Source: Calditrichales bacterium MX18-03 (GTDB taxonomy: Bacteria > Bacillota > Clostridia > Lutisporales > Lutisporaceae). From it: a stretch of DNA of 64,000 nt. Of this stretch, positions 27,830 through 29,878 are shown one piece after another. Below the pieces are notes generated by a model, which saw only the letters and a program-made list of their open reading frames with translations, made no database searches and had not been told where the DNA came from. The translations under genes and the position numbers were made by a program. The stretch lies in the NCBI GenBank assembly GCA_021083345.1, contig JAJGRE010000001.1:992001-1056000 (forward strand), written 5' to 3'. The number at the start of each line of letters is the position of its first letter. The first letter of the stretch is position 1.

Positions 27830-27843
27830 CGAACATATGTTTG
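27830..27843. promoter_or_regulatory. SOS box (LexA/DinR site)
   Basis: CGAACATATGTTTG differs from the Gram-positive LexA consensus CGAAC-N4-GTTCG at one base. It overlaps the -35 box of the promoter for the radical SAM/DUF4130 genes, the usual position for LexA repression. Confidence 0.75.
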
Positions 27844-27868
27844 CATATCACGGGAAATATGGTATAAT
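27841..27868 (+). promoter_or_regulatory. Promoter of the radical SAM / DUF4130 operon
   Basis: TTGCAT (27841-27846), 16-base spacer, TATAAT (27863-27868), about 20 bases before the ATG. Confidence 0.65.
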
Positions 27869-27888
27869 TTTCATATGGAGATGATAAA

Positions 27889-29070
27889 ATGGACACCAGG
27901 AAACTAACGATCCTAGGAGAGGCTGCCAAATACGACATATGCTCTTCCACCGCCTCAACCAAGCAATTTGGCAAAGCCTCAATCGGCAATACCCTCCCCT
28001 CCGGCATCTGTCATTCCTTCACTCCGGACGGCAGGTGCGTATCCATGCTGAAGGTGCTGATGAGCAACGAGTGTGAAAAGGATTGCAACTACTGCCCCAA
28101 CAGGGTCCAGCGGGATGTACTCCGCACCACCTTTGCGCCGGAGGAACTGGCAAGGCTGTTTATGGATATGTATGAGCGCAATTACATAGAGGGGCTCTTT
28201 CTGAGTTCAGGCGTGCGTCATAATGCCGCTTCCACCATCGAAAACATGCTGAAAACACTGGAGATCATCCGCTTCCGCTACCGTTTCGGAGGCTACATCC
28301 ACCTGAAGATCCTGCCCGGTACTGAAGAGCAGTTCATTGAGCGTGCTGCTGAGCTATCCAACAGGATCTCCATCAATCTGGAGGCGCCCAACCGAGACCG
28401 GCTTTCCATCCTGAGCCGGACCAAGGATTTTGACAAAGAGCTGGTACAACCCCTCCGCAGCATATCGAAAATACTGAAGCGGCATCCCGGCACCACGCAC
28501 TCCACCCAGTTTATCGTAGGGGCTGCCCAAGAAAGCGACAAGGAGATCCTGACTGCGGTCAACAGGCTTTACAGCGGCTTTGACCTGAAGCGGGCTTACT
28601 TCAGCGCTTTCTATCCGGTAGCCGGTACGCCGCTGCAGCATATGCCCCCCGCCTCCCAGCTCAGGGAGCACCGGCTCTATCAGTCTGATTTTCTCATGCG
28701 CTTTTATCAGTTCCGCTTCCAGGACTTTATATTCGACGAGAGCAGCAATCTGGATCTGAGCCTGGATCCCAAGCTGATGTATGCGATTAAGAATCCCCAG
28801 CTCTTTCCGGTGGAGATCAATCGGGCGACTCTGGATCAGCTGCTTCGTGTTCCGGGCATCGGCCCCAAATCCGCCCGCAAAATTCTGCAGGTCAGGCGGC
28901 AGTACAAGCTGCGGAGTCCTATGGAGCTTAAGAATATGGGCATCAGCCTGAAAAGAGCTCAGAAATTCATAACCTTTGACGGCAAATGTTTTGACAGCAG
29001 CCGCTGGCTGCTTGATCCCAACCGATATCAATACGAGCAGCTCAGCTTTTTTAAGGAGGTCAGCCTATGA
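27889..29070 (+). CDS. Putative DNA modification/repair radical SAM protein (TIGR03916 type)
   Basis: 393 residues. The cluster motif is CEKDCNYCPNR (CxxxCxxC) near residues 61-71, followed by a radical SAM barrel. Near the C-terminus LLRVPGIGPKSARKILQVRR is a helix-hairpin-helix, the non-specific DNA-binding motif of repair enzymes. This architecture, next to a DUF4130 protein, matches the family annotated as putative DNA modification/repair radical SAM protein. The reaction is not known to me. An SOS box over the promoter supports a damage-response role. GGAG 8 bases before the ATG; the stop overlaps the next start by 4 bases (ATGA). Confidence 0.9.
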   Translation: MDTRKLTILGEAAKYDICSSTASTKQFGKASIGNTLPSGICHSFTPDGRCVSMLKVLMSNECEKDCNYCPNRVQRDVLRTTFAPEELARLFMDMYERNYIEGLFLSSGVRHNAASTIENMLKTLEIIRFRYRFGGYIHLKILPGTEEQFIERAAELSNRISINLEAPNRDRLSILSRTKDFDKELVQPLRSISKILKRHPGTTHSTQFIVGAAQESDKEILTAVNRLYSGFDLKRAYFSAFYPVAGTPLQHMPPASQLREHRLYQSDFLMRFYQFRFQDFIFDESSNLDLSLDPKLMYAIKNPQLFPVEINRATLDQLLRVPGIGPKSARKILQVRRQYKLRSPMELKNMGISLKRAQKFITFDGKCFDSSRWLLDPNRYQYEQLSFFKEVSL

Positions 29071-29825
29071 TCCGTTTTTCTTCAAATTGCGATTCCTTGC
29101 TGAAGGCCTATCTATTGTCCAAACTGACAGGAGACCAGATCCTGACAGAAGGAGGAGACTCCCTTTTATTCTTCAGGGAGGACGCTGTCATTGATACAGA
29201 GAACTATATATTGGAGGACTTGATCACGCAGTACCAGGACTATTTCCTTAGAAATATACGCTGGCTTTCCTCTTTCAAAGGCAACGAGCTTAAGTACAGG
29301 ATCAGCACAGCGCTGCGGCACACGTCGCAGCACAAGCATACCGTCGTTTTCAAGGCACTGGAGGATGCTTTTTCCAAGGGAATCCACTATTGCCTGGAAG
29401 GTGCTTCGGAGCATGGGAAGCAGCTGCGCCACCTGTGCAGCGAGGTCCAGCATGAGGTCTACCGCATGATGGGCTTCATCCGCTTCAGACCGGCAGGCGA
29501 AAAGTGCCTGGTAGCCTCCCCGAAGCTGTATTATGATACCATCGATCTAATACTAAGGGAGTTTCAGAACCGTTACCCCTATCACCGCATTGTGCTTGTT
29601 ACGGAGGCTGGTGCCAGGGCAATCGAAGACAAGCGGCTTTTTTCTGTGGATCCGGTTTTCTATGAAAAATTCCTTGCTGATGATTCCTTTGACCAGGTTT
29701 GGGAAGAATATTACCAGTCGCAATATATACCAGCCCGGAAGAACCTCCGTCTGACCGCGTCAAAAATACCGAAAAAATACTGGGATTGGATGCAGGAAGG
29801 AAAAATCCTTCGCAATGAAGAATAA
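29067..29825 (+). CDS. DUF4130 / TIGR03915-type DNA metabolism protein
   Basis: 252 residues, translationally coupled to the radical SAM gene. HEVYRMMGFIRFRPAG in the middle and WEEYYQSQYIPARKNLRLTA near the end are the conserved blocks of the DUF4130 family, which in other bacteria is also fused to a uracil-DNA-glycosylase-like domain. No membrane segment or signal. With its partner it probably acts on damaged or modified bases; the chemistry is inference. A pair of hairpins follows the stop. Confidence 0.87.
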   Translation: MIRFSSNCDSLLKAYLLSKLTGDQILTEGGDSLLFFREDAVIDTENYILEDLITQYQDYFLRNIRWLSSFKGNELKYRISTALRHTSQHKHTVVFKALEDAFSKGIHYCLEGASEHGKQLRHLCSEVQHEVYRMMGFIRFRPAGEKCLVASPKLYYDTIDLILREFQNRYPYHRIVLVTEAGARAIEDKRLFSVDPVFYEKFLADDSFDQVWEEYYQSQYIPARKNLRLTASKIPKKYWDWMQEGKILRNEE

Positions 29826-29878
29826 ATCATAAGGTCTATGACCTGATGATTTATTCTTGGAGTTTTCTTGAAAACTCC
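29818..29878 (+). other. Two adjacent hairpins between the DUF4130 and iadA genes
   Basis: First stem: AAGAATAAATCAT pairs with ATGATTTATTCTT (29818-29858), with inner AGGTC/GACCT. Second: GGAGTTTTC (29859-29867) and GAAAACTCC (29870-29878) with a 2-base loop. Neither has a clean T-run, so they may be a weak terminator or mRNA-end structure, or leader structure for iadA. Confidence 0.55.

Follow-up and report, generated by a model that had tools for sequence, protein, structure and literature searches.

The stretch of DNA analysed here (the window, 64 kb) carries a two-gene operon with an apparent LexA operator in its promoter, which raises the question of whether the operon belongs to the SOS response and what its two proteins would then do. 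The putative operator (SOS box), CGAACATATGTTTG, lies at 27830 to 27843 on the plus strand. It covers the first four bases of the −35 hexamer of a promoter at 27840 to 27868 on the same strand (TTTGCA-N17-TATAAT), which is predicted from its consensus match alone (10 of 12 positions) and has an extended −10, a TG preceding this hexamer. The first gene (27889 to 29070, plus strand) encodes a radical SAM protein of 393 aa with a C-terminal helix-hairpin-helix (HhH), and its reading frame shares four bases, ATGA, with that of the second gene (29067 to 29825, plus strand), which encodes a DUF4130 partner of 252 aa. Directly 3′ of the latter, a strong double hairpin (29818 to 29878, plus strand; −32.1 kcal/mol, z of −6.95) is the probable end of transcription, and the next gene beyond it is a beta-aspartyl-peptidase homologue. 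A preliminary description had read the locus as a coupled two-gene operon with a box on the −35 that is one base off the LexA consensus, a first protein combining CxxxCxxC with an HhH, and DUF4130 as the second protein. These features were all recovered: the box has one mismatch to CGAACN4GTTCG and none to the degenerate Gram-positive LexA consensus CGAACRNRYGTTYG, and the domain assignments are given below.

The radical SAM protein belongs to TIGR03916 (423 bits against a curated cut-off of 343.5) and matches Radical_SAM and, C-terminally, HHH_3 in Pfam. Its CxxxCxxC motif is C62/C66/C69. These cysteines and three more, C18, C41 and C50, are invariant in our alignment A3, and the window protein keeps every residue that is invariant there. 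It scores about 420 bits, compared with 550 to 700 for most members of the class. In the tree, it and the copy of a related genome, G109 (72% identical), make up a clade that a long branch separates from every ordinary copy; only a Gemmatirosa sequence, itself very divergent, falls loosely next to this clade. Other members of the family to which the window and G109 genomes belong carry an ordinary copy. An AlphaFold model of the protein has a pLDDT of 84, and residues 17 to 39, the auxiliary-cluster region, fall below 50.

The partner protein matches PF13566 (DUF4130) with 83.6 bits (gathering cut-off 27). Against TIGR03915 it reaches 87.9 bits (91.8 for the close relative in G109), which is below the curated cut-off of 112.25, and we therefore call it divergent. 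At the positions of D5, G10, H165 and D179, which are near-invariant elsewhere, it has S, S, E and T, suggesting that it may not act like ordinary copies. It might thus be a noncatalytic scaffold or a DNA-binding relic, with the radical SAM protein of this clade acting alone, a reading to which these losses, the TIGR03915 score and the long branch bearing the radical SAM proteins of the window and G109 all lend weight. However, the partner retains E130, R139, F140, R169, N226 and E244. Furthermore, comparing the window and G109 genomes shows purifying selection on each of the two genes, the DUF4130 genes differing by 0.59 at third positions versus 0.27 at first and second positions. We consider the scaffold or relic reading a real possibility, but not the probable one.

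The predicted fold of DUF4130 would suit a module that contacts DNA or nucleotides. Its AlphaFold model (pLDDT of 86, pTM of 0.81) resembles RecJ, Cdc45 and archaeal RecJ with Z scores of 8 to 10, the best match to RecJ-like structures having a Z of 10.3 over 193 residues with an rmsd of 3.9. Every chain at a Z of at least 8 belongs to the DHH superfamily, either by its title or, in the case of a PAP phosphatase, as a protein that we take to be a member. The best TM-score in Foldseek was only about 0.48. Unlike the members of the RecJ/Cdc45 superfamily, the window protein lacks a DHH motif, as does the family consensus, and sequence profiles gave no support: the hhalign score between DUF4130 and RecJ, 16.2, fell within a column-shuffled null reaching up to 22.9, so that the link to RecJ rests on structure comparison alone. 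No relative of DUF4130 was found in a sequence search of the PDB, and a Pfam scan of 41 DUF4130 proteins detected no second family. A RecJ/Cdc45-like fold devoid of RecJ catalysis is, on the basis of this model, probable but unproven.

The composition of the pair in other phyla offers another view of its function. In nearly all loci, the DUF4130 gene follows the radical SAM gene, often overlapping it. The partner in Bacillota and Bacteroidota is usually about 240 to 290 aa long and has no UDG domain. It is annotated as UdgX family in three annotated alphaproteobacterial copies, and in both of the two copies scanned from this group it is TIGR03915 fused to TIGR03914. This fusion would place the pair in base repair. 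The window pair has both families and the gene order in common with this UdgX-linked system of TIGR03916, TIGR03915 and TIGR03914, from which it differs in having no UDG domain in the operon and a TIGR03915 score under the cut-off. Considering the fusion to a UdgX-family domain, and that UdgX crosslinks to abasic DNA (PMC10359453), the pair might support base excision by a UDG, acting on uracil or abasic intermediates; the task of the radical enzyme would be to resolve abasic sites or DNA-protein crosslinks of the UdgX type. However, the usual lack of UDG in the partners of Bacillota and Bacteroidota implies that a fused UDG is not needed, and the window operon has none; we regard this role as rather improbable.

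It is also conceivable that the pair modifies instead of repairs, with sulfur or some other group being inserted into bases of DNA or RNA under stress. The radical SAM model is closest to lipoyl synthases (LIAS/LipA) and HydE, with a best Z of 18.8, and BioB and RlmN are also listed; weak NCBIfam matches to LipS1/LipS2 and the invariance of the three extra cysteines in A3 would fit such chemistry as well. However, C18, C41 and C50 are not universal, as their equivalents are missing in the Gemmatirosa homologue, and the SOS control, the HhH domain and the UDG fusion point to damaged DNA. We therefore consider modification unlikely. Spore photoproduct lyase (SplB), whose substrate is 5-thyminyl-5,6-dihydrothymine, is likewise a radical SAM enzyme acting on DNA, which resembles the role predicted for the window enzyme. 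In contrast to SplB, the nearest folds of the latter are LIAS, HydE and BioB, and the SplB model was not among its NCBIfam matches at an E of 0.001 or less.

With respect to regulation, the host genome (4.69 Mb) encodes a clear LexA (TIGR00498, 249.6 bits), and the operator of its lexA gene is the same 14-mer as at the operon. In pattern searches of the whole genome, on which all genome-wide counts are based, this 14-mer occurred exactly in two places only, the operon promoter and lexA. The exact pattern GAACRTAYGTTY occurred in nine places, five of which are at lexA, yneA, dinB, a rarA-like ATPase gene and the operon, with a sixth preceding a tyrosine recombinase; near-identical boxes precede recA, dinB, uvrB, ruvC, yneA and the rarA-like gene. 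Because boxes of the same type stand at these SOS genes, the window box is an ordinary member of that set. In the G109 relative, the leader DNA has diverged, yet a 21-bp block including the box, ATACGAACATATGTTTGCATA, is identical to that of the window. Within the window, the box is the sole site with at most one mismatch to CGAACN4GTTCG. Loose matches (at most two mismatches) number 12 versus 15.7 expected and are thus not above chance, so the significance of the box lies in its position, its rarity in the genome and its conservation.

Several other sites of this genome were observed in passing. A YneA-like cell division suppressor gene (L002:1706-2002; G000 C7; NF010723, 66.9 bits) is divergent from the adjoining lexA and has two SOS boxes upstream, an arrangement shared with Bacillus. 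A tyrosine recombinase or integron-integrase-like gene (L290:357-1463; G000 C9:87208) directly behind AGAACATATGTTTG is possibly an SOS-controlled recombinase. The sole perfect CGAACN4GTTCG of the genome (L001:1501; G000 C7:879491) precedes a TetR-like gene, which is not an obvious SOS gene, and is perhaps the operator of this TetR-like regulator itself rather than of LexA.

The preliminary description had suggested that SOS boxes be sought in the promoters of clostridial orthologues. Of the 391 genomes of the class, 185 have TIGR03916 (146 of them above the cut-off), and 111 of its loci were surveyed for CGAAC-N4-GTTCG with at most two mismatches between −250 and +10 of the start. A box was found in 95 of the 111. 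In the remainder of these loci, 61 of 1,271 windows have one, and shuffling the upstream windows gave a mean of 4.7 and a maximum of 10. Counting by the start position of the box raises the figure to 97 loci, as this takes in boxes running past the window edge. Among 49 genomes checked for LexA, all 35 with a standard box have it, whereas it is absent in 6 of the 14 without (Fisher p of 2e-4, only a guide, since the genomes are related and not independent). One might take the box for a chance match and the operon for one outside LexA control, given that the number of loose matches in the window does not exceed expectation, but such a coincidence is extremely improbable for a box that is identical to the lexA operator, overlaps the −35, is kept in most orthologues and is absent where LexA is absent, and on the comparative evidence we reject this reading along with that of another regulator. 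The LexA control proposed in the preliminary description is thus strongly supported by all computations, as firmly as can be expected from sequence analysis, and we are, on a rough estimate, nearly certain that the window operon would prove to be controlled in this way.

One family of the class, f31, provides what at the sequence level is a natural control, in which the operator has drifted with LexA and the box is missing where LexA was lost. Five of its members have LexA and three have none; AAAC-N4-GTTT or AAAC-N4-GTTC precedes the pair in four of the five and in none of the three. The loci concerned (L113, L116, L121, L122 and L158) give the appearance of a LexA operator drifted to AAAC-N4-GTTT/C in one family. 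In the f31 member G264, the leader of lexA contains AAACAAATGTTT and the pair has no clear site; G385 and G148 similarly keep LexA and have no recognisable operator at the pair, and G175 is ambiguous. An operator with a changed spacer, shared by G175, was considered and dropped because the two spacings differ. Genomes without LexA still keep the pair, which, together with those that have LexA and no operator, indicates that the pair can function without SOS control.

Copies of other kinds were also noted. A second, more distant TIGR03916-like group (L053, L054, L055 and L056; about 316 to 325 bits) had no DUF4130 neighbour in the loci examined, and boxes are present at L054 and L055 and absent at L053 and L056. 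In Pusillibacter faecalis, the pair lies on plasmid pMM59_01, which is typed as conjugative, with several GAAC-N4-GTTC-like sites upstream (L167), and a further TIGR03916 homologue is on an IMG/VR viral contig (L250). Searching the genome contigs with the single window protein returned no relatives, and they were found with an alignment as the query.

Outside the class, the pair stands behind other operators. In four alphaproteobacterial plasmid copies, an exact GAAC-N7-GAAC, which we take to be the alphaproteobacterial SOS box, lies 29 to 118 bases upstream. In six Sphingobacteria, the pair is preceded by CTAA-N5-TTAG, a motif reported for the SOS regulators of Bacteroidetes (PMC8565304). Three types of operator at the same pair suggest repeated selection keeping it under SOS control.

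LexA control of the pair is not new, and the present work extends earlier predictions. COG4277 is presumably the same family as TIGR03916. The preliminary description, which called the pair poorly described and its annotation only putative, was partly wrong, since the LexA or SOS link is already in the literature (PMC3828012, PMC3765255, PMC8565304); our literature search found no paper describing an activity of the pair. In 2013, LexA control was predicted for CAC3343-CAC3344 of Clostridium acetobutylicum (PMC3828012), a prediction for one species only; judging from other clostridial copies, the window pair is probably a more divergent relative. In the same year, the SOS link was drawn for DUF4130, radical SAM and UDG, and the DUF4130-linked radical SAM enzymes were termed SplB-like (PMC3765255). 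SOS control of a COG1573-COG4277 operon, in which COG1573 is the UDG, has been reported in Bacteroidetes, and Verrucomicrobia and Alphaproteobacteria are cited alongside (PMC8565304). The Bacteroidetes operon, like the pair, consists of two genes under the phylum's own SOS operator, but its LexA-like regulators and motifs are different from those of the window. An Acinetobacter homologue is reported to rise during desiccation (PMC13130816). The pair is not in the LexA list of C. difficile (PMC4234289), and no operon or SOS context was found in the UdgX papers. What is added here is the breadth of SOS operators at the pair across the class and phyla, the divergent variant of two genomes (window and G109) whose DUF4130 lacks otherwise near-invariant residues, and the model that gives DUF4130 a RecJ/Cdc45-like fold from which the catalytic DHH motif is absent.

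We suggest that the locus is probably a LexA-repressed, damage-induced operon whose two proteins act jointly on DNA. LexA at the box would block RNA polymerase, and RecA on single-stranded DNA would trigger the self-cleavage of LexA, so that the pair is made. C62/C66/C69 would hold the [4Fe-4S] cluster of the radical SAM protein, possibly with a second cluster held via C18/C41/C50, and the HhH would dock the protein on DNA. The 5′-deoxyadenosyl radical could then abstract hydrogen from a damaged base or sugar, by which the lesion would be reversed or made removable, while DUF4130, with its RecJ/Cdc45-like fold and no DHH motif, may be a DNA- or nucleotide-binding subunit holding the substrate. 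As rough estimates, action of the pair on DNA as repair is quite probable, and a radical reaction directly on the lesion falls a little short of probable. Radical chemistry on damaged DNA is plausible, and radical repair, as the predicted role, is consistent with the domains and the regulation. A bolder proposal, which we put forward tentatively and think unlikely to hold as a whole, is that DUF4130 represents a DNA-binding module of the RecJ/Cdc45-like type, lacking DHH and so far unrecognised, which forms with an auxiliary-cluster radical SAM enzyme a widespread LexA-controlled radical repair machine for a new class of lesion, the window clade having a remodelled partner site.

Nearly half of the genomes sampled from the class carry the pair, which also occurs in many phyla, and its operators track changes in LexA specificity. 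Its SOS regulation points to which stress to try first. If the predicted role is true, the SOS repair response would gain a branch based on radical chemistry.
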